Shown here: in pieces, positions 17,732-49,769 of the stretch
Layout of the letters: the number at the start of each line of letters is the position of its first letter
Numbering within the stretch: position 1 is the stretch's first letter
DNA from: a virus
Length of the DNA: 64,000 bases
IMG/VR virus record: IMGVR_UViG_3300022821_000014
Span: 1-64,000 of that record
Strand: one strand, 5' to 3'
Notes under the pieces: generated by a model
What the model was told of the DNA's origin: nothing
Databases searched by the model: none
The model's input: the letters and a program-made list of their open reading frames with translations, nothing else
Position numbers and translations under genes: made by a program

Positions 17732-17977
17732 TCAGGAATCTTCTTCACCTGAATCTGGCCTGGTAACAACTCTATCCGAACTTCCACTGCTGTAAGTGTA
17801 ATCCAGGAAAAACAATAGATCAGATGGTAACGTCATCGGTTGGACTGATACCATCTCGTTGACAAAATTACTTGGGAAGATTCGTCTGGAGAATGGGAAG
17901 GTGCGACTAGACTTGTATCTGGCAATCAGCTTACGGAAGCCTTTCACCGTCAACTTTAGTTCGTCGCAATCATTCAT
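17732..17977 (-). CDS. Small protein resembling the N-terminal segment of T4-type major capsid protein
   Basis: The ATG at 17977 is preceded by AAGG at good spacing. The 81-residue product has two parts. Residues about 11-25 (VKGFRKLIARYKSS) match the helix motif of the tiny ORFs near 45.4 kb. Residues about 30-62 (RRIFPSNFVNEMVSVQPMT, then LLFFLDYTY) resemble a conserved early segment of T4-type major capsid proteins, 'FPN..A...VQPM..P.GL.F.LDY.Y'. It is far too short to be a capsid protein. It may be a capsid-derived fragment that now does something else. It follows the gp51-like gene. Confidence 0.55.
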   Translation of the reverse strand: MNDCDELKLTVKGFRKLIARYKSSRTFPFSRRIFPSNFVNEMVSVQPMTLPSDLLFFLDYTYSSGSSDRVVTRPDSGEEDS

Positions 17978-18046
17978 ATTGCCTTGGCCCAACCTCGACT
18001 CCTGCCTGTAGAATCAGTGTAATTTTGAGGTCTCATTTTGTATGGC

Positions 18047-18376
18047 CTACGTAAATCTTCGAAGTTTACTTGGCACAACTGCTCTTTGTTTACCAGACAT
18101 GGCTCGGACATCGGGTGTGTTATGGTGAGCCCCCTTTGAAGGAACCTGTGAACCACCACCCTTGTTAACTTCAACAGCTTTACGGATTTCCTTGTCAATT
18201 CTTTCGATGAGCCAACGTCGGTACCGCACAGGCATGTTGTAGTATGTCCTGAAATCTAGTCCAAAGTAGTACCCAAGCAAGAAGAAGGGTTCAAGGAAAA
18301 CTAACTCTCTATGTTCTGGCGTTAGGCCAAAAAAACGTGGGGCCCATGGGAAGAGCAATGTCTGCCACATGGTCAC
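18047..18376 (-). CDS. 51: gp51-like baseplate hub assembly protein
   Basis: This 109-residue protein overlaps the gp26-like gene by 68 bases in another frame. It contains LEPFFLLGYYFGLDFRTYYN and MPVRYRRWLIERIDKEI, the pattern of small T4-like gp51 proteins: aromatic-rich helix, then 'P.xxRRWxIERIxKE'. In T4, gp51 is needed catalytically for central baseplate hub assembly and is not in the finished virion. The same order, gp26 then gp51, occurs in T4-like genomes. The Lys/Gly-rich C-terminus is likely disordered. Confidence 0.6.
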   Translation of the reverse strand: MTMWQTLLFPWAPRFFGLTPEHRELVFLEPFFLLGYYFGLDFRTYYNMPVRYRRWLIERIDKEIRKAVEVNKGGGSQVPSKGAHHNTPDVRAMSGKQRAVVPSKLRRFT

Positions 18377-19330: not shown

Positions 19331-19654
19331 TTACAGAGTCTTCTGAGTGTACTGGTTTTTCAGGTGTACGCCCTTTGTGAACTGTGCGTTTGAATCACGA
19401 TACTCCATGACCGCAGCAATGAGCCTCCTGGCTTCTCCGACTGTCATTGGAGCATCTGGCTTTGCCTTTGTCGAACTCACAAGTATTGGAAATACCATGA
19501 TTGGTGACACCATAAGTGGCACATAGGGTGCGTACACGTAACCTGTACTTAAATAAGAATATCCCTTTCGGGTCTGTAAATAGATGTCACGTATTTTGAG
19601 TTCAACTAGGTACTTGGCAATAATCTTTCGAATGTCACCTATCTTCAAAACCAA
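19331..19654 (-). CDS. Hypothetical protein, 107 aa, with repeated helix motif
   Basis: A TTG start at 19654 overlaps the preceding small ORF by 20 bases. The N-terminus (LKIGDIRKIIAKYL) and the internal MTVGEARRLIAAVMEYRDS both contain the T-x-x-E-A-R-K-L-I-like helix seen at the start of several tiny ORFs in this genome. The protein thus looks like two such units joined by a hydrophobic, Pro/Val-rich linker (about residues 40-62). Function is unknown. Confidence 0.5.
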   Translation of the reverse strand: MVLKIGDIRKIIAKYLVELKIRDIYLQTRKGYSYLSTGYVYAPYVPLMVSPIMVFPILVSSTKAKPDAPMTVGEARRLIAAVMEYRDSNAQFTKGVHLKNQYTQKTL

Positions 19655-24796: not shown

Positions 24797-25371
24797 TTGT
24801 CGTACCACCTTTTTTCTGGTCGGTCTTTGTCCTTCTTTTTCTTTTCACGCTTCTTTTTTATCTTCTTGTCAGTGTTGCCGCCAAGGCCTGGGTCACGTGT
24901 TGGACGACCCTCGCTGTCTAGATTATATAAATGGTCTGGGAGGGAACTACCCATTTGGAAATACTCAACAGAACCTCGTGATCCAATACGTTCTTCGCAC
25001 ATTATGTCTTCGAGCGTTGTTGTTCTAATAAAAGATTCCCAGACATAGTTTTTCGGTAAGTCTATCACCCAAGCTTCAGCGCTCTTCTCACCAGACAATT
25101 TTTTACTACTTAGGCGGTGGTGCCCGTCCTGGATATATAACATCCCGTCGTAGTTGCGAATCACTACAGGTGAACCACCACTGCTCCACTCACCAGATGC
25201 TTGCTTGGTTAGAGTTTCCTGGTCAATTTCTTCTTGTGTGGCTCTAAGTCTTGGATTGTCAAGTCGAATACTCTCCATCCTGCCTTCATCCCACAGCGGT
25301 TCGAGTTTCGAGACAATATATTTGCCTGGGTTTTCTATGACGTCTTGAGCTACTTTGAACGGAGGTTTCAT
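24793..25371 (-). CDS. ParB/sulfiredoxin-like fold protein
   Basis: The 192-residue protein contains PVVIRNYDGMLYIQDGHHRL (about 88-107) followed by strands ending AEAWVIDL. The 'D/N-G-x-x-R' strand-turn is the hallmark of the ParB/Srx nucleotide-binding fold, and here reads DGHHR. Members bind CTP or ATP, or act as nucleases, kinases or DNA-partition factors. The last 40 residues are an extreme Lys/Arg tail, likely nucleic-acid binding. It overlaps the nucleotidase upstream and the basic protein downstream. A DNA-associated regulatory role is inferred. Confidence 0.6.
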   Translation of the reverse strand: MKPPFKVAQDVIENPGKYIVSKLEPLWDEGRMESIRLDNPRLRATQEEIDQETLTKQASGEWSSGGSPVVIRNYDGMLYIQDGHHRLSSKKLSGEKSAEAWVIDLPKNYVWESFIRTTTLEDIMCEERIGSRGSVEYFQMGSSLPDHLYNLDSEGRPTRDPGLGGNTDKKIKKKREKKKKDKDRPEKRWYDK

Positions 25372-26201
25372 TTCCTACCCTTTTTTTGGGTATCAGGTTC
25401 ATCACCTGACCACATACGCTCGTGCTCGACCGACATATCTTTACCCAGTGGTGTGCCTCCTGTGCCTGATACTTTTCCAGAAGATTGTAGAGCGCCACCG
25501 CCAATTCCGATGGCACTAACTTCATTCATGCCCTTGAGTTTGGCGATGACTTCCTCAAGTTCTTTAATAGTCTTCGAAGCTTCGGTATGCATGATGGCGG
25601 TGCCGCCAGCTGCTCGAAAGCGATTGACATATTTGGGGCGATCATCAATGAGGATATCCCACTCGCTTTTGGCGAAGTTCTCTTTGCCTTTAGTACAATG
25701 GAACTCATCTGTGAGCTTGTCGATTCCATGCATCTTGACCCACTCAATTTTTTCTTCCTCACAACGTGGGTGCCTTGTCATTGGAGCTGTGAGAATGTGT
25801 GGCTTCTTACCCGTGAGTTCGGTAGCAGCCGCAATCATCTCTAATACACCAGGCATCACTTCAAGCTCTAGGAAATGTCCATCTTCACTGGCGACCTTGT
25901 AAAGCAAGCCCTCGTGCTTCTGATAGAGCTTCTTCAGCTTCTTCAGATATGGTTCTGATTGCTCGCCCTTGAGGAGTGTCTTGACATCATCCTTGTGCAT
26001 GTTGGCAATCTCGGGCTTCTTTGCCATGAAGGCCTCAAGCTCTTCTCTTGCCTGGCTAGCACTAGGGTTTGCGTCAACACGACCTGTGAAGTCAGCCAAT
26101 ACGCCATCCATATCAAAATAAATTGTTGGTTCTTGTTTTTCCAGCAACTCTTCTATCACTTCTGTTATCATGAATTTAACTAGCTTTTGTATGTTTTTCA
26201 T
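25368..26201 (-). CDS. HAD-superfamily 5'-nucleotidase-like protein with N-terminal tag
   Basis: The product has 277 residues. Residues 1-25 form an amphipathic helix (KLVKFMITEVIEELLEK) like the shared N-terminal tag. HAD motif I follows (YFDMDGVLADF, 28-38), and motif IV-like DILIDDRPKYVNRFRAAGG lies in the last third. This matches NT5C-type nucleotidases that remove 5'-phosphate from nucleotides. The C-terminal 45 residues (GIGGGALQSSGKVSGTGGT) are Gly/Ser-rich and disordered. No Shine-Dalgarno is visible before ATG 26201. A 31-codon ORF at 27033-27128 repeats this N-terminus, so the GIY-YIG gene seems to have landed in this gene's 5' end. Confidence 0.75.
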   Translation of the reverse strand: MKNIQKLVKFMITEVIEELLEKQEPTIYFDMDGVLADFTGRVDANPSASQAREELEAFMAKKPEIANMHKDDVKTLLKGEQSEPYLKKLKKLYQKHEGLLYKVASEDGHFLELEVMPGVLEMIAAATELTGKKPHILTAPMTRHPRCEEEKIEWVKMHGIDKLTDEFHCTKGKENFAKSEWDILIDDRPKYVNRFRAAGGTAIMHTEASKTIKELEEVIAKLKGMNEVSAIGIGGGALQSSGKVSGTGGTPLGKDMSVEHERMWSGDEPDTQKKGRK

Positions 26202-27057: not shown

Positions 27058-27128
27058 ACTGTTGGTTCTTGGGTCTCCACAAGTTCATCCATGACTTGCT
27101 CAACCAATAGTTCGATTAGCTTTTTCAT
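27033..27128 (-). pseudogene. Orphan 5' fragment of the HAD nucleotidase gene
   Basis: ATG 27128 overlaps the stop of the preceding gene (ATGA). The frame encodes 31 residues: an amphipathic start (KKLIELLVEQVMDELVE) and then TQEPTVYFD, before leaving homology and stopping at TAA 27033. The intact nucleotidase at 26201 begins with a similar helix followed by KQEPTIYFDMDG. Of the last 24 aligned residues, about half are identical. The GIY-YIG gene separates the two. The fragment looks like the original, translationally coupled start of the nucleotidase gene. Confidence 0.65.
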
Positions 27129-28243
27129 CCGTATGTGTGTTTCACTTGCATCTTGGTCTGGATAGCTTTAAACTTATTCAAGTCAATAAAGCGGACGTCG
27201 TAGACCTTGTCTAGACCATATTCAAATACCGTTTTGATTATGTCCCTTGAATTTGACATTTCCCTGGTCCACGAATTACTGTCTATATCGATACCAAGCT
27301 TTGGCTCTTCACCCTTTGAGAGTTTGGCCTGAGCAGCCTCTGGGAAATCTGAGAGCGGCGCTTCGACTGCCACTAGTAGTCTTGAACCACGAGGAATTTT
27401 AAGAGTATCAGAGTCTACAACCCACTCCCCCTCTGTAGAATATGTGCGAACTGAATCAACGATAGCCTTCTTCACGTGGGATGTCCACATGTCTAATGAG
27501 ACATCCTTGAATTCCTGTCGGTGTGTTGCCTTATCAACTTCCATCTTGAGGTAGCCAGCAAATTCTTTAGGAGTGTCAAGAGTAAACCCACCATCTCCAT
27601 ATGGCGCCAGAATTTTATACCCAGGTAAATACCCGTCTCGCATCGAGCGCCCCAAGTCTTCCAAGACTTTGTCTCCGTCTTTAATCATATTTTTGGCCAG
27701 GTGACTCCAAACGTTGTCAATAATACGGCGGTTTCCCCTTGGCGCCTCGTCTGCATTGAAAATGCGTCGCAGATAAGCTAAATCATCCCGAGTCAGGTCG
27801 TACGGATCATCATAGCGTACTCGGTCAACACGGCCTTGATTATCATTCATCAGTTTCTTGGCATCCATCACTAAAACAGCGTTGCGTCCAATACCGAGCC
27901 AATGCATCAGGATTTTGCGATTGTCAGAAATGCCCGATACCCCATGGAGAACACCATCGGCGAGGTCTTCTACTTTGTCCGTAACCTTTTCGTTGATTGT
28001 TGTTACGAGCCAAAATACGTTTGGGTTGCCTGGTGTAGACTTCGCTTCATCTAAAACTTCTTTTACGCACTCACTAATGAGATTTTGCAGTTCTTGCTTT
28101 TTGTTCATTTCATGTCGACTGAGTTTTTTGAAGTGCGCTAAATTAAAACCTCTGAAGGCTTCCGTTAGTGGAGCCCGCTCAGCTTCAACAAACACCTCTC
28201 TAACACATTCGCTGATGAGGACTTGCAACTCCTGTTTCTTCAT
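27125..28243 (-). CDS. Tagged paralogous protein A with duplicated N-terminal tag
   Basis: This 372-residue protein has two tandem copies of the tag: residues 1-22 (KKQELQVLISECVREVF) and 46-67 (NKKQELQNLISECVKEVLDE). The first leads to PLTEAFRGFN, with an L-x-E/A site after Glu28. The second leads to LDEA, with a site after Glu66. The remaining ~300 residues are homologous to the next gene: FWLVTT, IGRNAVLVMDAKKL, VRYDDP and EGEWVVDS-LKIPRGS. The last strand resembles the ExE strand of ADP-ribosyltransferases, but this is tentative. Processing in the capsid by a gp21-type protease is inferred. Confidence 0.6.
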   Translation of the reverse strand: MKKQELQVLISECVREVFVEAERAPLTEAFRGFNLAHFKKLSRHEMNKKQELQNLISECVKEVLDEAKSTPGNPNVFWLVTTINEKVTDKVEDLADGVLHGVSGISDNRKILMHWLGIGRNAVLVMDAKKLMNDNQGRVDRVRYDDPYDLTRDDLAYLRRIFNADEAPRGNRRIIDNVWSHLAKNMIKDGDKVLEDLGRSMRDGYLPGYKILAPYGDGGFTLDTPKEFAGYLKMEVDKATHRQEFKDVSLDMWTSHVKKAIVDSVRTYSTEGEWVVDSDTLKIPRGSRLLVAVEAPLSDFPEAAQAKLSKGEEPKLGIDIDSNSWTREMSNSRDIIKTVFEYGLDKVYDVRFIDLNKFKAIQTKMQVKHTYG

Positions 28244-29238
28244 TGCTTTGATTTCCTTGTCCAGAATTTTTTCTTGTATGCATCAAATTTCTTCATTGAG
28301 ATGAACTTGAGTCGGTAGTGGTTTTCAAGCCCATACCGTTTAGCTAGCGCCATAATCTCCAGCGCTTGTTTCTCTTGTACCATCTGCGGTGTAGGCCAGC
28401 CATTTACATGCGATCTAGGGTCTGGGTCTTGAGCAAATTCCTCACGGGCCTCATCGGAAATTGTCTTGGGGTCCACGTCAACGCCAATAAACAATATGCT
28501 GTCCTTAGGGACTGACATAGCATCGTCTTTGACAAACCATTCACCTTCAGATCGGTAGGTGGCACCGATGGCTTTGAGTGCCTTTTCCACGAGGGGCATC
28601 CAATCATCCAAAGTCAGCAACTCCGCATCCTTGACAATGTGTTTCTCATTGTCATTGGCAATCTTGATTGTGGCTTTATGAATCCATGCTGTCAGATCTT
28701 TTAGGGTATTGATAGAAGGCTTCTCAGTTTTGTATGCCCTTCCATACCAACTTGGCGCCAAAGTGCCATAGTCAATATTGTATAAGACTGTAGCCATAGG
28801 TTTACTGGCCTGCTCTGACTTCTTGCCCTGGGCCTTGACATAATCCATGACGGTTTGCATGAGGCCTGTCCAGTCGTAATCATTTTCTGGAGAGCGGTTG
28901 AAAAGCCTGAATAGGGCAGCCATCCCCTTTGAGACAAGGTAATGAGGATTGTCATACATCACACGAGAAACATTATTTACCTCAAGGAACTTCTTTGCTG
29001 GGATGACCAGGACGGCGTTTCGAGCTACTCCGAGCCATTGAACCACAATCTCCTTTGTATCGGAGATTCCTTTGACCCCTACAAGCTCCCCCGTGGCCAG
29101 CTGCTCAAGGGTATCTTCAGAGTGTTCATCGACGGAAGTCACCATCCAAAAAACCTTGGGGATGTCCGCTTCGGTGTAAGAAGCTTCACGGAGTACCTTG
29201 CGGACCTCTTGTTCTATTAAATTATTTAGGGTGCTCAT
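28240..29238 (-). CDS. Tagged paralogous protein B
   Basis: The start at 29238 gives 332 residues beginning STLNNLIEQEVRKVLREAS, a tag with L-R-E/A after Glu18. The body parallels the neighbouring protein A: FWMVTS, VARNAVLVIPAKKF, VMYDNPHYL and EGEWFVKD-MSVPKDS, then VDVDP. The pair arose by duplication. The 'EGEW...P.(G/D)S.L' region could be an ADP-ribosyltransferase-like catalytic strand, as in the packaged T4 Alt protein, but other conserved ART motifs were not clearly found. Start choice is supported by the upstream small tagged ORF, which ends one base before. Confidence 0.6.
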   Translation of the reverse strand: MSTLNNLIEQEVRKVLREASYTEADIPKVFWMVTSVDEHSEDTLEQLATGELVGVKGISDTKEIVVQWLGVARNAVLVIPAKKFLEVNNVSRVMYDNPHYLVSKGMAALFRLFNRSPENDYDWTGLMQTVMDYVKAQGKKSEQASKPMATVLYNIDYGTLAPSWYGRAYKTEKPSINTLKDLTAWIHKATIKIANDNEKHIVKDAELLTLDDWMPLVEKALKAIGATYRSEGEWFVKDDAMSVPKDSILFIGVDVDPKTISDEAREEFAQDPDPRSHVNGWPTPQMVQEKQALEIMALAKRYGLENHYRLKFISMKKFDAYKKKFWTRKSKQ

Positions 29239-29239
29239 G

Positions 29240-29410
29240 TTATCTGGTTCTCCCAACGCCACTGCCAAGGGGGTCTAGATGTGCATCTGCGTATGCGTAC
29301 ATCTCCTCGTAGGATTCAAGTTGCTGAAAGTGTCTGAAGTTAAACCCTCTAACGGATTCTGCCAGTGTCTTTCGCACTTGACTTTCAATTAATTTTTGCA
29401 AGGCGTACAT
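29240..29410 (-). CDS. Small tagged protein, 56 aa
   Basis: ATG 29410 overlaps the stop of the kinase-like gene (TGATG). The peptide begins YALQKLIESQVRKTLAESV and continues RGFNFRHFQQLES, followed by 23 residues rich in Tyr, Ala and Asp. The L-A-E/S site after Glu18 and the RGFN...F..LE motif are shared with the kinase-like protein and paralogue A. It may be a minimal packaged protein, or the remaining leader of a lost larger one. Confidence 0.6.
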   Translation of the reverse strand: MYALQKLIESQVRKTLAESVRGFNFRHFQQLESYEEMYAYADAHLDPLGSGVGRTR

Positions 29411-30114
29411 CAATCCATAAACCCTTCTTCGGTAAGCCCATAATCAGCAATAACTAGGCGTCCATCTGTTGTCATACCCCAGTGGTCATAACGCTCAATA
29501 TCCTCTATGCCTGCTCTAGTGGCCTCAAAAGCCTTTTCAAACAGTTCAAGGTCCAAGTTATTCAAATCACTCAATTCAATAGGCTTGTTTATGGTAAATT
29601 TAGTGAACTCATCTTTGTAGTGGTTGTTATGGTATTCAATGCCTTGAACCAATGCCTCGTCGAATTCTATATTCTGGTAAGCAAGCATAATCACCCATTC
29701 CAGAGCTACCTCGCTAACATGCATTTTACTCATCAGGTCAGCATTGTCAGCGATTATTTTGACACCTTCAGCTATCAACCACATATAATTTTCAGAATCG
29801 AAGTCATAAATCTTAGCCAGGAAGTCTTCAGCACCACTTTTCGTATAAGCTTCTACTTCGTTTCTTGTCTGTGTGTTGCCACGTTTACTGTGAACTATCT
29901 TCAGTATTTTGCCTGAGCCTAGTCCAAATACAATTCTTGCTGCGCCCCTGCCAAGGCGTGGAAGATGGTCTAGCGCATATTGGACTCTCTCTTCGGGAGT
30001 TTCTAAGAGCTTGAAACGCTTCATGTTAAAACCTCTCCAAGACTCAGACAAAGAAACACCTCGTAGTTCTTCAACCACAAGGCTTTCTACAAGTTGTTTT
30101 AGCGTGTTTGTCAC
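29410..30114 (-). CDS. Tagged protein-kinase-like protein
   Basis: The 234-residue product starts at GTG 30114. Residues 1-24 are the tag (TLKQLVESLVVEELRG, then SLSE before a possible cut at Ser25), followed by SWRGFNMKRFKLLE. A kinase-like fold is visible. LGRGAARIVFG (54-64) is a glycine-rich loop and GKILKIV has the strand-3 Lys (69/72). NEVEAY (85-90) offers the helix-C Glu. DHWGMTTDGRLVIADYG (210-226) parallels the catalytic loop with a DYG in place of DFG. It is smaller than typical kinases. If cleaved in the capsid it would be a virion-borne kinase. Confidence 0.6.
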   Translation of the reverse strand: MTNTLKQLVESLVVEELRGVSLSESWRGFNMKRFKLLETPEERVQYALDHLPRLGRGAARIVFGLGSGKILKIVHSKRGNTQTRNEVEAYTKSGAEDFLAKIYDFDSENYMWLIAEGVKIIADNADLMSKMHVSEVALEWVIMLAYQNIEFDEALVQGIEYHNNHYKDEFTKFTINKPIELSDLNNLDLELFEKAFEATRAGIEDIERYDHWGMTTDGRLVIADYGLTEEGFMD

Positions 30115-30122
30115 GCCTATAA

Positions 30123-30989
30123 CTATTCTAGTTCAGGCAAGGAGCATGTAATGTTTTGACACGCAGATGAAGAAACTGGGTGGTCGGTTAAAATAGTCGG
30201 TTCACCAAGCATCACCACTGGCTGCGACACGAGTCTCTGAACCTCTGAAATAACTGTTGCAAACCCGATATAATGTGCGTCTCTTACAAAAGAAGTTGTC
30301 ACACCAACTGCTTGGCCAAAGTTATTAAACAAGGGCCCACCAGAAGCTCCTGGCGAGACGTGTGCTTGGTGAATAATTCTAGTCCTGCCGTTTGGAAACT
30401 CACGAATAGATGAGATCATCCCCTCAGTGAAAAGCCAGAACTGGCTGCTTGGCATCCCAATTTCATAGACCCTTTCACCAATCCTTGGTAAAGCAGGAGC
30501 CATAGAAAACCAATGTACTGAATCTGGTTCACCCTCTACCAGGCGCAGTAAGGCTACATCCTCGCTTGGATTAGTCTGTACCACAATTGCTCTGTGAGTT
30601 ACAGGTTCAGAAATTCGGCTATAGTTTCTAATGAAATTCATGTGAACTTCGTGAGTAATAAACAAGACTTCGCTTCCGATTGTTGGTTCCGCATCAGGTA
30701 TTGGTAACCTTATGGTCAAATCAGATCCAAGTGAATAAACCTGGTATTGGGGGATTTCCACACAATGATTTGCTGTTGCCAAAATTCTCGGTCCAACAAA
30801 AAAGGCTGTGCATTGTGGCGCCGACAAGCCGTCATCCCCTCTCTCAACAAGAGCAACCGTTGAATTCATTGCAGCATTTACCAACTCTGCATTGTCAGCG
30901 AGCCGCTGCTCGGTAGCAGCTGCCAAAACAGTACAACCACCAACTAACAGCCCAAACAGGACTACTAATCCAACAAGTTTTTTATGCAT
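30123..30989 (-). CDS. Trypsin-like serine protease, predicted lipoprotein
   Basis: The 288-residue protein has a signal peptide with a lipobox-like LVGGC (Cys19), so it is probably a lipoprotein in the periplasm. The catalytic triad of the S1/trypsin-like fold is visible: His75 in ATANHC, Asp144 in SEDVALLRL and Ser216 in PGASGGPLF. The next gene encodes a paralogue with the same layout. The ATG overlaps the preceding stop (ATGCATAA), so the pair is co-translated. Such host-type DegP/S1-like exported proteases are unusual in phages. The target may be host envelope proteins or competing phage receptors. Confidence 0.8.
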   Translation of the reverse strand: MHKKLVGLVVLFGLLVGGCTVLAAATEQRLADNAELVNAAMNSTVALVERGDDGLSAPQCTAFFVGPRILATANHCVEIPQYQVYSLGSDLTIRLPIPDAEPTIGSEVLFITHEVHMNFIRNYSRISEPVTHRAIVVQTNPSEDVALLRLVEGEPDSVHWFSMAPALPRIGERVYEIGMPSSQFWLFTEGMISSIREFPNGRTRIIHQAHVSPGASGGPLFNNFGQAVGVTTSFVRDAHYIGFATVISEVQRLVSQPVVMLGEPTILTDHPVSSSACQNITCSLPELE

Positions 30990-31827
30990 TTTCTCTTATC
31001 AACTCTCGGAAATTCCTGTCCATCTGTTCGATTTCTCGTTGTCCTTCCAGAACCCTGATCATAGTTTGGATGTAGTTGATGGGTTTTGCCTGACCTAAAA
31101 CGATCCCTGAGCTTTGTGTGCCCCAACCAGCTGAGTTAACACCGATCATTCGGCCTCTCGCATCCATCAGAGCAGAGCCCGATGAGCCTGGTCCCATGCG
31201 AACTTGGTGAAGGATGTCAATCGTATTGTTTAGGCGAATATGAACCCTAGAGATGATGCCCTCCGTTAAAATCCAAATCTGTCCAACGGGCATTCCTACT
31301 GAGTAAGCAACTTCTCCAGCTCTGAGAGGTTCATTTGTGAGATTCCTCATTTCGAGCCAGTGCTCGGCATCTGGTTCATCAGCTGTAAGTTCTAGCAACG
31401 CTACATCGTGTTCATCTGCATCATCTACTACCACTACAGTAGCGTGTGTAAGTACGGGATGGTTCTCATCCTCGTCGTCTCTACCAACCCATTCAGAATA
31501 ATGCTGATGCTCGATGAAAGAAACCGATTGTCCAACTGGCGATTGATTGCTAGATCCTGGAAGTACGACTGTTATGCCAGGTGCCAGAGTGACTCTGTTT
31601 ACGGCTGGCACACAATGCGCTGCTGTTGCCAAAAGCCTTGGGCTGACATATGTTGCAGTGCAATACGAGCCTCTAATGTTCTCGTTTTCTTCGTGAACCA
31701 GCGCTACAACTGCCTCGTAAACATTCCCCAATTCATCTGGATTACCTGGCACATGCAGGTCTGGGAGCCTGGCCCCACAACTCGTAAGGAACAACGCTCC
31801 CATTAACCAAAAAACTACTTTGTTCAT
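30982..31827 (-). CDS. Trypsin-like serine protease, predicted lipoprotein (paralogue)
   Basis: The start at 31827 (MNKVVFWLMG) is chosen because it opens a lipoprotein signal with FLTSC (Cys17); the longer frame adds a non-signal sequence. It has 281 residues with His71 in ATAAHC, Asp141 in HDVALLEL and Ser216 in PGSSGSALM. The last Gly of the usual GDSGG is Ser here, which is tolerated in some S1-like proteases. The two proteases share VGMP-x-Q-x-W and TEGxIS segments, so they are diverged duplicates. Confidence 0.78.
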   Translation of the reverse strand: MNKVVFWLMGALFLTSCGARLPDLHVPGNPDELGNVYEAVVALVHEENENIRGSYCTATYVSPRLLATAAHCVPAVNRVTLAPGITVVLPGSSNQSPVGQSVSFIEHQHYSEWVGRDDEDENHPVLTHATVVVVDDADEHDVALLELTADEPDAEHWLEMRNLTNEPLRAGEVAYSVGMPVGQIWILTEGIISRVHIRLNNTIDILHQVRMGPGSSGSALMDARGRMIGVNSAGWGTQSSGIVLGQAKPINYIQTMIRVLEGQREIEQMDRNFRELIRENA

Positions 31828-31954
31828 CTTTGCCTCTACTTTCAAAACGTGTGAGAACACGCATATGAATAAATAGAAACAAAACACCGCTTTGTTACAT
31901 TATTGTTACAAATGCTTAATTGCCTAGTTATTACGGCATTCTACGTAATGAGTC

Positions 31955-34900
31955 TTACCCGCACTTTGAATGCCCACAACCTTGGCAGGTAATACAACCT
32001 TCTTGGTAAGCTAGGTCTTTTGAACTACAGTTCGGACACTTTTTGAGTGAAGGTTTAGTACCATTCTCGATGTAATGTTTGAGTACCCGCATCAGACCCT
32101 TGGCCATTGTAAACATCTCATTGTCCTTGTCAGCACCCTTTTCAATTTGTTCGGTGACATATTGGACAGGAGCACCATGCCGAAGTGCAAGTGAAACGGT
32201 CCTAGTGAACGCACTTTCTGTGGTGTTTGCGAAAACTGATGCAAGGTCCTTGATCACAAGCTCATTTTCACCTTCACCTGTGTACAGATTGTAAGTGCCA
32301 TTTTTCTTGATCACACCCCTCTTGCGACTACGTGGAAGGTGGATGTGTTCCGAGCGGCCAGCGAAAATCTCGTAAGGTTTATCATCGTAGATCCCTACAA
32401 AGAAGTTCCACTTCTCACCACGAACCTGCATATGGTAGATGTCACAAGGGAGTTGTCCAGGGCGCTTTGGAGCATGGTGATAGGCAAATTTGTCTGATGA
32501 ACGAATTTCATCCTCCGACACTAATACACCTGTACGACACTTGTCACGATACACAGTAACTCCCTTGCAGCCCGTTTCCCATCCAGCCATGTAAATGTCT
32601 TTGATTGTATCTACTGTAGTATCTTCTGGCACGTTGGTAGTGTTGCTGATTGAGTGACAAACCCACTGTTGAGCAGCGGCCTGGGCCTTTACTTTGTTTA
32701 ACCAGTTAATATCGTTCGAAGTGGCGCCGTGGTAAGGACTGTCCTTTGGATCAGACTTTCCAGTTACTTCCATCCACTTCTTAAACCAGTGATGGTAAAC
32801 CGTGTATTCCTGCCACTTGTCGCCCATGTCGTCAACAAAATCAACACGGGCATCATGATCTCCTGGGTTGATCTTTCGTCGGCGCTTGTAGGACAGCATG
32901 AACGCTGGTTCAATGCCGCTGGTAGTTTGAGTAAGAACTGAAACAGAACCAGCTGGAGCTGTTGTCGTGTTTGCGATGTTCCGTCGACCGTACTTTTGCC
33001 AGGATTTTTTCATTTCTGGATCAAGGTCCATGATGCGGTTGATAAAGGGGTGATCCTTCTCAAGCTCGTAATCATACACAGGGAAGGCACCACGCTCTTC
33101 AGCAAGTTTCACGCTAGAACGGTGTGAATTTAGTGCCAGATTCTTGTATATTTCGTTGATAAGCTCAATCGACTCTGGGGACCCGTAGACAACATTCATC
33201 GCTGCAACGGCATCACCTACCGCTGTAAGTCCAAGTCCAGTCCGTCGCCCATTTTCAGCAGTTGTTCGAATCTTGTTCCATAGATCAGCCTCCATTTTCT
33301 TTACATCAGGAGGTTCTGGATCGGCATCGATTTTCGCCAGGATTCGATCAATAGCTTCCAGCTCAAGCTCAACCAGGTCGTCCATGAGGCGCTGTGAATC
33401 CTGTACAACATTTGCAAACTCTTCCCAGTCAAATGCAGCTTCGGCTGTAAACGGGTTCTTGACGAATGTTACAGAATTGACAAGTAGCAGTCTACACGAA
33501 TCATATGGTGAGAGAGTTATTTCTCCGCAATTATGTGCAAAGGTTCCCTTGAATGACTTTGTACCATCTTGTTGCCCTGTTATACCAGTAATGATGCCAA
33601 CTGTGTGGCTGTCATCTACTGTAATATTGTACACAGAGTGTGTGCCTTCAACCTCTTCAACTAAAACAATCTTATGGTTGTACTCAATACCTGCATCGCA
33701 AACTTCACTGTAGCTTTTAAAGCCATGCTTTATTTTTTGACCCAGCCTAAATGGGACGTTTTCTTGTTTACAGGCAGTTTCCCACTCCTTGGCCAACGGC
33801 TTTCGTCCTAGCTCGTACTGCAAGGAACTCCAAATTTTAATCTGGTCTCGCATTCGAAGCTCAGCCTTTTCTTTTGCCTTACGGTTAATGGCCTTTGTTC
33901 GCTTCGCATTTATACTCTGATCAGAATTCACGTATTCAAGTGAACATGCATGTGTACAGAAAGAAATTTCTCTTCTGTTGTGTTCAGTTACAAATGATGT
34001 TGCACAAGTTTCGCACTCTTTCTTTACCTGAACCGTATTGTCAGAAATAAACGCCTCATAACCTTGTCTGATCATCTCTTGTAGTGTTCTAACCAAACGT
34101 GGGTCTTTGTCAGTGTGTTCATAGCCCAAAGTACTGGCGCAAAGCATAGAAAGTTCAGCAGGGCTTCGGCCTAAGACCGCATGATGCATTTTAGAGAATG
34201 TCTGTGGCAACCCTTTATTCTTGGCAAAATCTTGCCATTCCTGGTGTGAGAACCTTCGGCCAAGATCCTGAGTAAAATTCAGTGCTTCTTTATAGATTTC
34301 CTTAGATTTTTTTCCGAGGAATTTACCGTTGTTTGAACCATTGTTATCATGCGTTGCATGAAATTGCTGATGTTCACGAAAAGTCATTATCTCAAGATTA
34401 TCAGGATCATTATTGGTGCCATCATAATCTTTGTGATGTACAACCAACCCTCCTTTTACCCAGCCATTTTGTTTCTCAGCTTGGTACTTTTCGGTCCACA
34501 ACTTACCTTGAGTGGCTTCAGCTATGAGTCTATGTTCGTATCTCTTTTTAGGTTCTGCCGAGCGGGTCTCAGTTTTTACTTGGTAGTATTTATTACCAGA
34601 CTTATTCATGCAGACAGGAGTCTTGCTGAATGAGGGCAGGCTATCGCCAGGCACTAGATCCCTAGCATTCTTTGTTTGACCGTCCCTGAGAATCATTTTA
34701 TGATTCGGAGTGACCCTAAGGGTCGTTCCATCATCAAGCGTTATTTTTAATAGCTTCTGATTGAGGTTTGTCAGGCGAGGGTTTCTTCCTGTTTTTATTT
34801 CAACATGACCGTTTTTTGGATTTACTGAGTACAGTAGGACATCTTTACCTTCATCTGCGAGCTGTTTAATTGAAACAGCATCTCTACCGTCAGCCAACGC

Positions 34901-35800
34901 AATTAGTGTATCACTAGAAAAACATGGGTTAGTTGATACTGTTCCGAATCCTACTGATTCGTAGGCGTCTGCTGGAGAGTATTTCTTAACTGTATCCCAG
35001 AACAGAAGTCCAGGCTCAGCTGATTCATGGGCTGACTCAATAATTTCGTGCCAAAGCTCTGCTGCATCGACCCAGGCTTCGACCTTTGGGTCTACTTTTT
35101 GAGTGATGGGCCAGCGAAGCTGAACTTCTTGACCCTTCTTGACTGCATTCATAAACTCATCCGAAAGTCGAATGGAAATGTTGGCTCCAGTCACACGCTT
35201 GCGGTCACGTTTGATGTTGATAAACGTGCGAATTTCTGGGTGGTGTACTGAGATTGAGAGCATTAGTGCACCTCGACGCCCTCCTTGTCCTACTTCACGA
35301 CAGGTGTTTGAAAAACGATCCATGAAAACAGCTATACCATCCGTAGTCCTTGCTGCATTTGCCGTTAGGAGACCTTGAGGTCGGATACTTGAGATGTCAA
35401 AGCCAACACCGCCTCGGCGCTTCATCAGCTGAGCCTGTTCTTGGTCTGTCTTAAGGATACCTCCGTAAGAATCATACGGCTCCTCAATCACAAAACAGTT
35501 GGATAGAGACATAACCTGATAAGGGTTTCCGACACCAGCCATCGGCGATCCTTGGGGGATTATGTATTTGAAATCTTTGAGGTACTGGTAAATTGCCTCT
35601 TCGGACAGCCCGTTTTTAAACTTACCTTCAATTCTTGCAAACTCGCTTGCAAGCCTCCTGTGCATATCTTCAGGAGTTGTTTCTTCTAAACCACCTCTTG
35701 GGTTGTTTATAGCATATTTTGTAATAAAAACATTGGCTGCTAGTTCATCGTTCTTGAAATATTTTAGTGATTGCTTATGTGCTTCTTCGAATGTTGCCAT
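31955..35800 (-). CDS. nrdJ: Class II ribonucleotide reductase (NrdJ) with intein
   Basis: The precursor has 1281 residues, of which 816 remain after splicing. The adenosylcobalamin-dependent enzyme reduces ribonucleotides to deoxyribonucleotides. Visible features: an N-terminal 292-residue extein with SPMAGVGNPYQVMSLSNCFV and RRGGVGFDISSIRP, an intein from residue 293 to 757, and CGEITLSPYDSCRLL. A C-terminal zinc site carries two Cys pairs (CPNC and CQGC, ending KCG), as expected for NrdJ. The intein splits the conserved NPCGE, whose Cys is the thiyl-radical residue. Splicing is therefore needed for activity. It sits upstream of the replicative helicase in this run. Confidence 0.92.
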   Translation of the reverse strand: MATFEEAHKQSLKYFKNDELAANVFITKYAINNPRGGLEETTPEDMHRRLASEFARIEGKFKNGLSEEAIYQYLKDFKYIIPQGSPMAGVGNPYQVMSLSNCFVIEEPYDSYGGILKTDQEQAQLMKRRGGVGFDISSIRPQGLLTANAARTTDGIAVFMDRFSNTCREVGQGGRRGALMLSISVHHPEIRTFINIKRDRKRVTGANISIRLSDEFMNAVKKGQEVQLRWPITQKVDPKVEAWVDAAELWHEIIESAHESAEPGLLFWDTVKKYSPADAYESVGFGTVSTNPCFSSDTLIALADGRDAVSIKQLADEGKDVLLYSVNPKNGHVEIKTGRNPRLTNLNQKLLKITLDDGTTLRVTPNHKMILRDGQTKNARDLVPGDSLPSFSKTPVCMNKSGNKYYQVKTETRSAEPKKRYEHRLIAEATQGKLWTEKYQAEKQNGWVKGGLVVHHKDYDGTNNDPDNLEIMTFREHQQFHATHDNNGSNNGKFLGKKSKEIYKEALNFTQDLGRRFSHQEWQDFAKNKGLPQTFSKMHHAVLGRSPAELSMLCASTLGYEHTDKDPRLVRTLQEMIRQGYEAFISDNTVQVKKECETCATSFVTEHNRREISFCTHACSLEYVNSDQSINAKRTKAINRKAKEKAELRMRDQIKIWSSLQYELGRKPLAKEWETACKQENVPFRLGQKIKHGFKSYSEVCDAGIEYNHKIVLVEEVEGTHSVYNITVDDSHTVGIITGITGQQDGTKSFKGTFAHNCGEITLSPYDSCRLLLVNSVTFVKNPFTAEAAFDWEEFANVVQDSQRLMDDLVELELEAIDRILAKIDADPEPPDVKKMEADLWNKIRTTAENGRRTGLGLTAVGDAVAAMNVVYGSPESIELINEIYKNLALNSHRSSVKLAEERGAFPVYDYELEKDHPFINRIMDLDPEMKKSWQKYGRRNIANTTTAPAGSVSVLTQTTSGIEPAFMLSYKRRRKINPGDHDARVDFVDDMGDKWQEYTVYHHWFKKWMEVTGKSDPKDSPYHGATSNDINWLNKVKAQAAAQQWVCHSISNTTNVPEDTTVDTIKDIYMAGWETGCKGVTVYRDKCRTGVLVSEDEIRSSDKFAYHHAPKRPGQLPCDIYHMQVRGEKWNFFVGIYDDKPYEIFAGRSEHIHLPRSRKRGVIKKNGTYNLYTGEGENELVIKDLASVFANTTESAFTRTVSLALRHGAPVQYVTEQIEKGADKDNEMFTMAKGLMRVLKHYIENGTKPSLKKCPNCSSKDLAYQEGCITCQGCGHSKCG
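33530..34924 (-). mobile_element. NrdJ intein with HNH endonuclease
   Basis: The 465-residue intein starts at Cys293 (CFSSDTLIALADGRDA) after STNP and ends AHN before CGEIT, so nucleophiles at both junctions are Cys. Block B is seen as VTPNHKMIL. The final blocks are HSVYNITVDDSHTV, then GTFAHN. The central part contains an HNH nuclease motif: VVHHKDYDGTNNDPDNLEIM, then HQQFHATH. A Cys-x2-Cys pair follows at about 596-599 and 615-619. Endonuclease and splicing parts are both intact by eye. Confidence 0.88.
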
Positions 35801-37431: not shown

Positions 37432-37995
37432 ATGGTTATGAAAAAAGGCTACCTAAAACAGCTAATCGAAATGGCCGTTTCGGCGGTCCTAAAAGAAATT
37501 GATAATAATGATGAATCTCATCTAGTGCCAGATGAACAAGGTGAATTTCATTCATCGGATGGTGACGATTCTAGATTTTGGGGTAATCGTGGGGCAGGTA
37601 TTTTACTGGTCGCTCAAGATACGGGCAAACTTCTTCTTGTCCTCCGTAGCGGTTATGTGAATGAACCAGGTACCTGGGGCGTCCCAGGCGGGAAGATAGA
37701 TGATGAGGATGAATCCCCAAGTGTTGCGGCCAATAGAGAAGCTGAGGAGGAGCTAGGATACTCGGGCCCTATAGACCTCGTCCCTGCTCATGTCTTCAAA
37801 TCAGGCAAGTTTCGATTCTACAACTTCATTGGTGTCGTACCAAATGAGTTTAAACCCACACTTGACTGGGAAAATGATGATGTAGGTTGGTTTTCAATTA
37901 ACGACCTTCCTTCACCACTACATTTCGGTATTCAATCACTGCTAACAAACTCCGAAAATCAAATCCTAGACGTGTTCAACTCAGTAGGTCATTAG
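37432..37995 (+). CDS. Nudix hydrolase with N-terminal tag
   Basis: The 187-residue protein starts with a tag-like helix (KKGYLKQLIEMAVSAVLKEI), then an acidic linker, then a Nudix domain. GTWGVPGGKIDDEDE begins the Nudix box, which is two residues longer than the usual G-x5-E-x7-REUxEExGU because of the ESPSVAAN insertion before REAEEELGY. The substrate is unknown. The tag suggests it may be carried in the virion with the other tagged proteins. It is one of the plus-strand genes and ends overlapping the exonuclease gene by 15 bases. Confidence 0.78.
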   Translation: MVMKKGYLKQLIEMAVSAVLKEIDNNDESHLVPDEQGEFHSSDGDDSRFWGNRGAGILLVAQDTGKLLLVLRSGYVNEPGTWGVPGGKIDDEDESPSVAANREAEEELGYSGPIDLVPAHVFKSGKFRFYNFIGVVPNEFKPTLDWENDDVGWFSINDLPSPLHFGIQSLLTNSENQILDVFNSVGH

Positions 37996-39422: not shown

Positions 39423-39928
39423 TTATATCCTGTGGAACCAAGTCCACCATCTCCCCGTTCTGTATCTTCAAGAGTCTCTACCGTGTGAATAGAAGGTTGC
39501 TCAACACGAGCGATTACCATTTGTGCGATGCGGTCCCCAGAAGCAATAGCAAATTCTTCTTGGCTATGGTTAATAAGGATCACTTTTAATTCACCACGAT
39601 AATCAGAATCAATTGTCCCTGGAGAGTTGAGGACGGTAATACCATATTTTGCTGCTAGGCCGCTACGTGGTCTTATTTGAGCCTCAAAGCCTTTGGGCAA
39701 TGACATGGCTAGTCCTGTAGATACAATAGCAGAGCGTCCTGGAGGCAGTACTACGGCTTCTGTGGCACTCAGATCCATTCCAGCTGCTTCTGAGGATTTA
39801 TACTCGGGTATCTTTGCCCAGCGGTTAAGTCTTTTGAAACAAATAGCTATCTCTTTTCCTAGAAGAGCTTTTCTGGGCGGTTCGACCCATCGTGGGTCAT
39901 CAGTCTTGTAATCTTCTTTGTACTTCAT
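39419..39928 (-). CDS. dut: dUTPase
   Basis: All five dUTPase motifs are visible in the 169-residue protein: [36 protein letters not shown] and the C-terminal [10 protein letters not shown]. It hydrolyses dUTP to dUMP and pyrophosphate, keeping uracil out of DNA and feeding ThyX. The trimeric enzyme needs the C-terminal motif, which is complete here. The first 40 residues are an extra N-terminal segment. Confidence 0.95.
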
Positions 39929-40389
39929 TTGTCTTGTTCCATGTCTAGAATGATAATAGGTGTATAGATGCCTTCGTCGGTCACATAATACATTCCTCCT
40001 TCTACAATTGTCTTGTCAAAATAAACCCGAACGGTTTCCATCTCATCAACAACTGAGTCTTGAAAATTCAATTCTCCATGTGTGTACTTACCTTTGTCTA
40101 CAAGATTGTCGTATGCAAACTTTGCACGGAAGCAGAGAAGGTGTTCCAGGATCAAATGCGGTCCCCTAGAAGTTACAATAACTCCTTTGCCGCTGTTCTC
40201 ACGAGAAATATTCCTAATCAATTCTGCCAAACCTTTGTTCCATTGAAATTTGTCAAAAAAGAACGGCGCTCCCGCTTTTATAGCTTCTTCTGGGGGAATT
40301 GGTTCGCTGGTGTCTTGATCAATATATACACCTGGCTTCTTCGACCAGAATTTCAATTTGCCCGACTTCTCTTTTAACTCGTACTCCAT
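39925..40389 (-). CDS. Hypothetical protein, 154 aa
   Basis: The family is not recognised. The protein starts [19 protein letters not shown], then [15 protein letters not shown]. Later strands ([20 protein letters not shown]) give a mixed alpha/beta pattern. Its beginning (FWSKKPG...ID) weakly parallels that of the next gene (YWSRLPG...VD), suggesting a distant pair. It is co-transcribed with dut and the recA C-piece. Confidence 0.5.
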
Positions 40390-40405: not shown

Positions 40406-40813
40406 CTAGCCTATTATGACCAATTCAACATGTCCACTATCCTTAATCGACAGGAACAAACTTTCTGTTTTAAACTTGTCAATCTTATACAGTGGAATTT
40501 CTGTACCAGCTAGAATCAAGCTGCCAAAAACAACTTCGTCTGTGTTACAAGGACTAATCTCTGGTGGTCTAAAATTAATGAGAACTTCCATGATTACGCT
40601 AACCAAACTTTCAGGGTCGAGTGAGATCGCCTTGACAATTCCAAGCTCATCTTGTATTGACATTATTAGTGGCATGAGGGTATGATACCACTCGTATACA
40701 CTGTACCGACCTGTACTCCCACTATTCCAGTCATCTGATAACACATCACCTGTTTTGGGGTCTACTAGCTTTCCTGGCAATCTTGACCAATATCTTCTGG
40801 TGGCGAGTTTCAC
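40406..40813 (-). CDS. Hypothetical protein, 135 aa
   Basis: Not recognised. The start codon overlaps the stop of the RecA C-piece (ATGA), so it is likely translated with it. It begins ATRRYWSRLPGKLVDPKTGD, has a helical middle (WYHTLMPLIMSIQDELGIV) and ends in alternating hydrophobic strands. A small co-factor of recombination is possible by position only. Confidence 0.5.
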   Translation of the reverse strand: MKLATRRYWSRLPGKLVDPKTGDVLSDDWNSGSTGRYSVYEWYHTLMPLIMSIQDELGIVKAISLDPESLVSVIMEVLINFRPPEISPCNTDEVVFGSLILAGTEIPLYKIDKFKTESLFLSIKDSGHVELVIIG

Positions 40814-48111: not shown

Positions 48112-48745
48112 GTGGCTCAGGGTTTTGTGGCAAGTTCTGAGAACTTACCTCATCTTCCGTTGGCCTAAGGTCGTAGCTTGTGTCAAGAATCTCCATCATT
48201 TCTTTTGCTGTTCTCTCATCGTAGTTACTCTGAACATACTTTTCAGCACGGTTCAGGATCAGTGTGTTTAGATCAATCAGTGATGGAAGGTTATTAGTAA
48301 GCCTCGCCACGCTTCTTGTAAAGTCTTGTAGGTTGATCTTAGGGGTGTTTATAACTGGTTGTTCGCCAGCACCTGCGTCTTCACCATCTGCGGCTGGGTC
48401 TTCTTCGCCTAGATCACCACCTAGATCACCACCTAGGTCACCACCCAAATCCCCTCCGAGGTCAAGGCCGCCTTCTGCGTCAGCTTCGTCGTCAACTGGT
48501 TCTTCATCTTGTTCAAGCAGGAAATCAACAAGTGAGTCAACATTTGCCGATTCGAACATTTCAGAGGTAGGAATAGCTTCACGTTCATATTGAACGAAGT
48601 ACCGATCGATTGCTTGGTCCAACGAAAAAGCCTTGTCAGCCACACTTGCAAAATCCTGCATGGCTTCTGGGCGTTCTTGTGGTTGATATTCTTTTAGTAA
48701 GCTCTCAAGCAACACTTCAAGATTGTTTTTGTTTTTCTTGCGCAT
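48080..48745 (-). CDS. Acidic Gly-Asp repeat protein with tag-like N-terminus
   Basis: The 221-residue product starts KKNKNNLEVLLESLLKEYQP, like the tag. It then has LSLDQ-type helices and a five-fold repeat of G-G-D-L (about residues 94-113), and acidic EEDPAADGEDAG. The C-terminal half (INLQDFTRSVARLTNNLPSL) is helical. The low-complexity acidic middle may be a flexible linker or scaffold-like part. It lies directly after the SOD-domain gene. Confidence 0.5.
   Translation of the reverse strand: MRKKNKNNLEVLLESLLKEYQPQERPEAMQDFASVADKAFSLDQAIDRYFVQYEREAIPTSEMFESANVDSLVDFLLEQDEEPVDDEADAEGGLDLGGDLGGDLGGDLGGDLGEEDPAADGEDAGAGEQPVINTPKINLQDFTRSVARLTNNLPSLIDLNTLILNRAEKYVQSNYDERTAKEMMEILDTSYDLRPTEDEVSSQNLPQNPEPRAGVTGPVGG
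48409..48468. repeat. Five 12-bp tandem repeats
   Basis: Imperfect units of the form CTAGATCACCAC encode the G-G-D-L repeats in the gene on the minus strand. The first three are nearly identical, the last two diverged. Likely grew by slippage. Confidence 0.75.
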
Positions 48746-49668
48746 CAGTAACGCTCCTCTTCTGGACGTACTGGTGAGGGTGTTTCAGGTCCTGGAGGCG
48801 TCGTTGGTGGAACGTCGACCTCCCCTGAAGTGGTCACTTGATCGATAGGCGGACTCATAGCATTGTCGAGCATTTCCTGTGGAACTGCATTATACACAGG
48901 CTTAATCATGAAAAGTGCATCCAGATCACATCTTTCAGCAAGCGCCATACGAGCTTCAACCACGTTCCAGTTGATTTCACGCATCATTGCAACTATGTAA
49001 TCATTTTTGTCATTTTCGTAATCGCAAATGTAAGCATGCTCCCACATGTCCATCACGAGAACAGGTACAGCACCTAGCGGAATGCCAATGTTGTGTGAGT
49101 CAATCACGACATTCATGTAGGTGTTTTTGTAAGGCTCGTAAACCAATACAGCCCAACCACTTTTTGCTGACCTACAAGCTGCCATAAAGTTGAACTGCCA
49201 ATTCTCAAAGGTGCCAAAGTCTCTTGCAAGCCTCATATATGGCAATGCGTCCACACTGATTTCTGATGCTCTATCAGCGACGTTGTGAAAGTAAAGTTCA
49301 TGAAGCTTGATTGAATTCAAGTTATAGTTTTCGTCAACCTTCAGGGAACGATACTCAGAAGAGTTGGAATTCGCCTCATGTTTGCCAGCCCCGTCAAGCG
49401 CCGAGCTTGATTTGTTGAAAGTGTCAACGTAAGAGTTATAAAGCTGTTGGTGTACTCGTTTAGTAACTTCCGACAATGATTCTGTGTTTAAAGTAAAGGC
49501 CTGTGGTATTGCCACTAGTGCTTCTTTGATTACTCTTTTGGCGGTCTTCACAGACTCCACTAAATTTGTGGTTGGCCTGGCCACTTCTTTTTTCGTGTAT
49601 TCAGGTAGCTTTCCTGACCTCTGAAGAGAGTCACGGATAGCACCGTTGATGATTTGCTTCAAATCCAT
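48745..49668 (-). CDS. Fe/Mn superoxide dismutase-domain protein
   Basis: The start at 49668 gives 307 residues. After a tag-like N-terminus (DLKQIINGAIRDSLQRSG) the protein matches an iron/manganese superoxide dismutase. His73 lies in RVHQQLYNSYV and His123 in KLHELYFHNV. DMWEHAYICDYENDK (207-221) is the diagnostic D-x-W-E-H-x-Y with metal ligands Asp207 and His211. WNVVEARM follows the last ligand region as in SODs. The ~50-residue N-terminal extension and Pro-rich C-tail (VPPTTPPGPETPSPV) are not in bacterial SODs. If active, it dismutates superoxide; a structural role is also possible. Confidence 0.75.
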   Translation of the reverse strand: MDLKQIINGAIRDSLQRSGKLPEYTKKEVARPTTNLVESVKTAKRVIKEALVAIPQAFTLNTESLSEVTKRVHQQLYNSYVDTFNKSSSALDGAGKHEANSNSSEYRSLKVDENYNLNSIKLHELYFHNVADRASEISVDALPYMRLARDFGTFENWQFNFMAACRSAKSGWAVLVYEPYKNTYMNVVIDSHNIGIPLGAVPVLVMDMWEHAYICDYENDKNDYIVAMMREINWNVVEARMALAERCDLDALFMIKPVYNAVPQEMLDNAMSPPIDQVTTSGEVDVPPTTPPGPETPSPVRPEEERY

Positions 49669-49769
49669 GGGAATTCTTTCGTTGCGCAACACGGTTAAGT
49701 ATGTGCAGCAATCCAAAAGAAAACCCTAGGAAGGCGCCTAAGCGTGGTGCCTAAGTTTTATTACAATAC

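Follow-up and report, generated by a model that had tools for sequence, protein, structure and literature searches.

A tagged, C-lobe-less kinase-fold protein in a phage genome fragment and its probable delivery from the virus head

Does the gene at 29410-30114 encode a protein kinase, and does its product travel in the virion to be injected at the start of infection, as the first-pass annotation supposed? The window, that is the whole stretch of DNA analysed, comprises bases 1-64,000 of a virus record of 90,967 bases in total. An open reading frame of 234 residues had been announced for this position and was found exactly there on the minus strand (Table 1). It is a genuine gene. The protein of its closest relative (locus L080, positions 1773-2480) is 58% identical, with pN 0.27 and pS 0.81, the silent sites being saturated. 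The GTG start at the matching position and the N-terminal tag also occur in L080 and in a further orthologue, L105. Identity to L080 is 70% over residues 1-30 (pN 0.20, pS 0.55) and 56% over the remainder, so the tag is translated and kept as protein.

Table 1. Features of the kinase-fold gene and of tagged genes in the window.
Feature	Position	Strand	Basis and remarks
Whole gene: tagged, C-lobe-less protein of predicted kinase fold, 234 aa, GTG start	29410..30114	-	ORF list
N-terminal tag, residues 1-24, ending in L-S-E; candidate prohead-protease site before S25-W-R-G-F	30043..30114	-	model, orthologues
Glycine-rich loop G55-R-G57-A-A-R60	29935..29952	-	between model strands 53-56 and 60-66
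K72, beta3 lysine	29899..29901	-	strand 69-74; 51/51, fixed by search pattern
E86, helix-C glutamate	29857..29859	-	helix 77-92; 51/51, outside search pattern
D205, probable catalytic aspartate, without the His/Arg of HRD	29500..29502	-	49/51
D224-Y-G226, equivalent of the metal-binding DFG	29437..29445	-	D in 51/51, G in 50/51; beside strand 220-222
Truncated tandem paralogue, 57 aa: tag, RGFN linker, glycine loop, stop	29240..29413	-	E 1.5e-6, 44% to kinase gene
Tagged neighbour, 332 aa, tag LIEQEVRKVLRE	28240..29238	-	orthologue beside kinase in L080
Tagged paralogue of 28240..29238, 33% identical; tag twice, residues 9-20 and 55-66	27125..28243	-	tag cores
Tagged NT5C-type deoxynucleotidase, tag LVKFMITEVIEE at residues 7-18, before the domain	25368..26201	-	PF06941, E 1.8e-11, from residue 26
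Tagged NUDIX hydrolase, tag LIEMAVSAVLKE	37432..37995	+	PF00293, E 3.1e-17, from residue 53

The fold was predicted with AlphaFold2 from the window protein and 50 aligned relatives (51 sequences), which gave a model with a pLDDT of 86.3 and a pTM of 0.78. The model runs from a helix at residues 4-19 and a disordered stretch at 19-24 (pLDDT below 50) through strands beta1-3, helix C, strands beta4-5 and further helices to the catalytic loop and the DYG motif. The kinase domain starts at about residue 31, past the helical tag and the disordered linker. The top PDB matches of Foldseek were throughout kinase-fold proteins or their close structural kin, at TM-scores to solved kinases that are low (about 0.3-0.4), and phage proteins annotated 'protein kinase' were matched with E-values of about 4e-6 to 3e-5. 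The best match in VIA-align was PRPK (Z 8.7, 147 residues, rmsd 4.0), followed by ALK2, APH(2'') and PLK4 and, lower down, by NleH (Z 7.5) and RioK1. Every listed chain with a Z of at least 8 has a kinase fold, a Z of 8-9 being modest. AlphaFold2, Foldseek and VIA-align thus point alike to a two-lobed kinase fold with an incomplete C-lobe, and the product is confidently predicted to have a protein-kinase-like fold. Structure prediction had been set beforehand as the check on the kinase-like label; a non-kinase fold did not appear, and the label is borne out by the model and by the kinase-fold proteins that lead both structural searches.

The protein was also analyzed for the residues of a kinase active site. 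The glycine-rich loop, lysine, helix-C glutamate and D-Y-G motif named in the first-pass annotation are all present (G55-x-G57, K72, E86 and 224-226). The catalytic region that it traced stands as far as the D-Y-G is concerned, but the catalytic aspartate is most likely D205 and not the aspartate of DHWG. D205 lies within IED-IERYDHWG, and the residues D210-H211-W212-G213 that follow replace the usual loop ending in asparagine. A loop of the type HRD...N is absent: an aspartate is found there, without the His-Arg. Position 210 is occupied mainly by D (20), S (15) and E (6) in the 51 sequences, and the position of the usual catalytic-loop Asn, near H211, by H (27), S (13) and N (5). The glycine loop, the beta3 lysine, the helix-C glutamate, the catalytic aspartate and the DFG aspartate are each found in 49-51 of the 51 sequences. 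The invariance of G55, G57 and R60 (51/51, partly by search design) and of K72 is discounted as evidence, because the search pattern, which covered the glycine loop and the beta3 lysine, demanded these residues. E86, D205 and D224 lay outside the pattern. Their conservation, although the search did not impose it, argues for a working nucleotide site.

The relatives belong to a large phage family. The HMM of PHROG 4301 ('unknown function') matches residues 49-230 of the window protein with an E-value of 2.7e-12 and matches all 51 aligned members. Followed through Klebsiella phage phiKp_21, the family reaches into 28 phage records, mainly of jumbo phages, in which some members are annotated 'protein kinase' (e.g. 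K64-1 YP_010843357) or 'putative protein kinase' (Salmonella phage Munch 046). In IMG/VR the pattern of glycine loop and beta3 lysine was matched more than 120 times; the 80 loci listed, together with the earlier ones, gave 114 distinct proteins, 36 of them longer than 420 aa. In all, uncultured phages supply more than 100 relatives of the PHROG 4301 type, while jumbo phages such as K64-1 have a branch that lacks the tag. Searches with the window protein alone found no match in Pfam and no related locus; a related-locus search with query A1 returned only two jumbo-phage members, and query A2 was devoid of conserved stretches. PADLOC gave no match and NCBIfam no relevant match. In bacterial genomes the pattern hit four loci, two of which encode proteins (HGDLNDRNWG...DYG) that are read from their sequence as ABC1/AarF-type kinases, the other two encoding unrelated proteins. 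Among the longer relatives, L029, L034, L038, L039, L137, L140 and similar loci encode giant proteins of up to 1763 aa with the kinase domain first. These show apparent extra kinase-like repeats as well as stretches of VYHGT (ART-like) and nucleotidyltransferase-like type, separated by L/I-N-E motifs, and are possibly polyproteins of head-packaged effectors.

Beyond the active site the protein is severely shortened. It ends 8 residues past the glycine of DYG, most relatives ending within 8-26, and the activation segment, the APE motif and helices F-I are absent. On this account of its residues the product is not a textbook Ser/Thr/Tyr kinase. A construct of the Salmonella kinase SteC that was truncated soon after the metal-binding motif is inactive (PMC13395416). 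Loss of the C-lobe combined with the missing catalytic asparagine could mean a pseudokinase: Lys, Glu and both Asp are conserved, but the substrate platform of the C-lobe and the catalytic-loop Asn are missing. A packaged protein that is no protein kinase, either a nucleotide-binding pseudokinase or a phosphotransferase acting on small molecules or RNA through an APH-like substrate pocket built from a helical insert ahead of the catalytic loop, is unlikely, yet it deserves serious consideration. It would account for the missing C-lobe, for the His or Asp in place of the catalytic Asn, for APH(2'')-IVa among the top structural matches and for the inserts of variable length that separate beta5 from the catalytic loop among relatives. 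It accords poorly with the retention of Lys, Glu and both Asp in very divergent members and with the profile matches, which favour protein kinases over APHs. A profile of ten members found only protein kinases among its best 60 PDB chains (E 1e-4 to 3e-3). The profile of the wider family matched the PDB weakly, with the N-lobe of SteC as best hit (E 0.001). Matches to Pkinase were obtained for eight of ten members in one set (best 7e-5) and for 3/51 in the wider set. Actual phosphorylation of proteins by the product is a guess.

Delivery in the virion would depend on the N-terminal tag. In three orthologues an L-x-E motif precedes S-(W/F)-R-G-F, namely LSE24 in the window protein, LFE24 in L080 and LSE22 in L105; the motif is weak taken alone because it is short. 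A similar helix of about 20 residues ending in hydrophobic-x-E opens several unrelated genes of the window virus, among them those of the NT5C nucleotidase, the NUDIX hydrolase and a pair of paralogues. A strict regular-expression test for the tag is circular for the window virus, being built on the same sequences, and was replaced by a profile that left the kinase out and by a test on other phages. The profile spans 12 positions; of the nine cores from which it was made, the kinase gene supplied none and the truncated paralogue at 29240 supplied one. The kinase tag LVESLVVEELRG ranked 12th of 24,072 scored windows, and eight of the 11 that scored higher were training sequences. It reached 9.2 bits, as against 22-30 for the tags of the neighbours, and the 12-residue core of the profile does not cover its LSE. 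In a set of 58 kinases from other phages, the same profile scored the N-terminal block above the internal blocks with p 4.4e-15, a value that is optimistic because the relatives are not mutually independent; it was the best block in 29/57 proteins, where 7.1 were expected. The untagged RaK2-type branch begins at about the residue that matches residue 31 of the window protein, which marks the tag as a separable module. By these comparisons the tag appears to be a real, portable and separately conserved module, within and between phages.

Several observations concern other bearers of the tag. In Alishewanella phage Slicko01 (L006:2876-7909) a row of genes has starts of the type MKIxxLYESLLEE, the last of them being the kinase, with MKIYNLYSTLLEA; several genes before it resemble one another and look ART-like. 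Tagged members in isolated phages include WGH49657 of Slicko01 and BBA65318 of Xanthomonas phage XacN1, where the L-x-E of the tag reads LLE-A and LSE-A. In the window virus the two paralogues at 27125 and 28240 were suspected of being ARTs from an E-x-E-W motif. This identity is unproven, the model (pLDDT 57) being too poor for a fold, and Pfam and PHROG give no match for 28240..29238. In the protein of 27125-28243 the two tags are separated by the RGFN linker known from the kinase, as would be expected if a tag together with a kinase leader had been copied into this gene. A gene at 48745-49716 (minus strand) encodes a C-terminal domain of Fe/Mn superoxide dismutase (PF02777, E 2e-23); its N-terminus, MDLKQIINGAIRDSLQ, is possibly tag-like but was not selected by the tag profile.

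In the T4 system an N-terminal capsid-targeting sequence (CTS) and the gp21 cleavage motif L/I-X-E are known from Alt and the internal proteins (PMC9026906), and in phage P1 the N-terminal 30 residues of DarB are enough for packaging (PMC9024508). The window protein agrees with this arrangement in that a short candidate propeptide at its N-terminus stands apart from the kinase fold, which begins at about residue 31. The tag probably takes the protein into the virus head, from which it would reach the bacterium as infection begins. It is improbable, by comparison, that the kinase-fold protein is made inside the cell and never packaged, its N-terminal helix being a docking or regulatory helix. 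The RaK2-type branch lacking the tag would suit such a protein, as would the fENko-Kae01 kinase, which is unmarked by LC-MS/MS where two neighbouring genes are marked; however, the packaging model also predicts no MS mark on an untagged member. The occurrence of the same tag on unrelated enzymes of the window virus and the adjacency to head genes in relatives likewise speak against it.

The genomic position of the gene was examined in the relatives. In six of them T4-type head genes, homologous to the major capsid, scaffold or prohead protease gene of L020, are found at distances of 118 bases to 7.7 kb: the major capsid gene is 118-120 bases away in L106 and L122, and the distance from kinase to head gene is 4-8 kb in L020, L072, L110 and L127. 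A prohead protease, named by reading the sequence, is present on the kinase contig in L020, L072 and L106. In L020 protease, scaffold, capsid and kinase, the head genes again being named by sequence reading, fall inside 12 kb, and in L089 and L108 the kinase is flanked by structural genes recognised in the same way. In the window virus the kinase has two trypsin-like proteases on one side and the pair of tagged paralogues on the other, and a search of the 91-kb record, which is a fragment, found no prohead protease. The short distance to the capsid gene in L106 and L122 would also suit a role in head assembly, in which the protein, carried into the prohead by its tag, modifies or scaffolds head proteins with no role in the host. 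Such a role is very improbable, since the gene is often duplicated (two copies in L037, L058, L075 and L087) and stands among metabolic genes in the window virus, which is more effector-like.

Further features were noted in the surroundings. The tandem trypsin-like serine proteases directly upstream of the kinase (30123-30989 and 30982-31887, minus strand) are conserved in L080 and L105, and both have signal-peptide- or lipoprotein-like starts. Scattered pieces on the minus strand (17750-18109, 19487-19591, 39925-40389 and 40406-40813) resemble parts of the T4-type major capsid protein of L020; among them are two neighbouring stand-alone ORFs with similarity to residues ~423-518 of that protein. 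A ribonucleotide reductase at 31955-35800 (minus strand) is apparently interrupted by an intein, and an ORF at 52510-54840 (minus strand) has an intein-like N-terminus.

The explanation preferred here, and held with moderate confidence, is that the gene encodes a small kinase-fold effector without a C-lobe that is packaged in the head via a portable capsid-targeting tag and injected. The effector would retain the lobe that binds ATP, along with the catalytic loop and the metal-binding loop (K72, E86, D205 and D224). Its first ~24 residues would form the capsid-targeting tag that the window virus has put on several unrelated enzymes, and this tag would direct the protein into the prohead, where a protease of the T4 gp21 type may cleave after L-S-E24 in the disordered linker. 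The mature kinase-fold protein would then exit the head together with the DNA and could act on host or defence targets ahead of phage gene expression. Packaging, cleavage, injection, phosphotransfer and target are each steps that we infer. The virion-borne, injected character proposed in the first-pass annotation is well supported circumstantially, by the shared tag with its L-x-E and by the head-gene position in relatives. A broader version, in which one portable tag serves many uncultured phages of the T4 head type to load changing enzymes, including kinases stripped of nearly all of the C-lobe that phosphorylate host or defence proteins before phage transcription begins, is offered tentatively, as possible rather than likely. 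If it is true, a class of virion-borne protein-kinase effectors would exist.

These results provide a testable identity for a large phage family listed as 'unknown function'. They suggest that virions deliver kinases ready-made, as T4 does with its ADP-ribosyltransferase Alt, and pose the biochemical question of whether, and to which target, phosphate can be transferred by a kinase whose chain stops directly behind the metal-binding loop. The tag also offers a sequence handle by which packaged proteins can be predicted in uncultured phages. In the open literature, as far as it was covered, no description of PHROG 4301 proteins as virion-borne kinases was found.

Compared with known systems, the jumbo-phage members of PHROG 4301 (K64-1, Munch) share the catalytic residues and the truncated C-terminus of the window protein, but they lack the N-terminal tag, beginning at about the counterpart of residue 31, and their catalytic loop has an Asn, e.g. 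in DLNMGN. The atypical kinases PRPK/Bud32 and RIO are likewise small kinase-fold proteins, with 12-16% identity to the window protein, but retain the C-terminal helical part. The first-pass annotation had likened the protein to T4 Alt and the T7 kinase, a comparison to be made with caution. T7 gp0.7 is a phage kinase that modifies host proteins, but it is longer than the window protein and is synthesised after infection, not carried in the virion. Alt is virion-borne but is an ADP-ribosyltransferase and not a kinase (PMC9026906). Alt and IPI-III of T4 have an N-terminal propeptide with L/I-x-E before the mature effector, an arrangement that the window protein appears to share. For the CTS of IPIII about 10 residues are enough, whereas the putative packaging signal described here has about 20-24 residues and a different sequence. 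The type III effectors SteC, OspG and NleH are minimal injected kinases whose C-lobe is reduced, as it is here; they are, however, bacterial effectors that act on eukaryotic cells, and SteC depends for its activity on a C-lobe portion that the window protein lacks.

C-lobe-less kinase domains made up of the N-lobe and the active site were described in 2017 in polyvalent proteins, which phages are presumed to inject (Iyer et al. 2017, PMC5512222), so the concept of a shortened phage kinase that is injected has a precedent. The window protein has likewise lost the C-terminal subdomain and kept the active site, but it lacks the hallmarks given for polyvalent kinases in the text of that paper, a Glu before strand 2 and a Gln in the last N-lobe strand. 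Arg60 is invariant at the start of strand 60-66, with no Glu preceding it, and position 116 is E in 33, D in 14 and Q in 3 sequences. Moreover, the polyvalent kinases form part of long multidomain proteins, whereas the window protein is a free-standing protein of 234 aa with a tag of its own.
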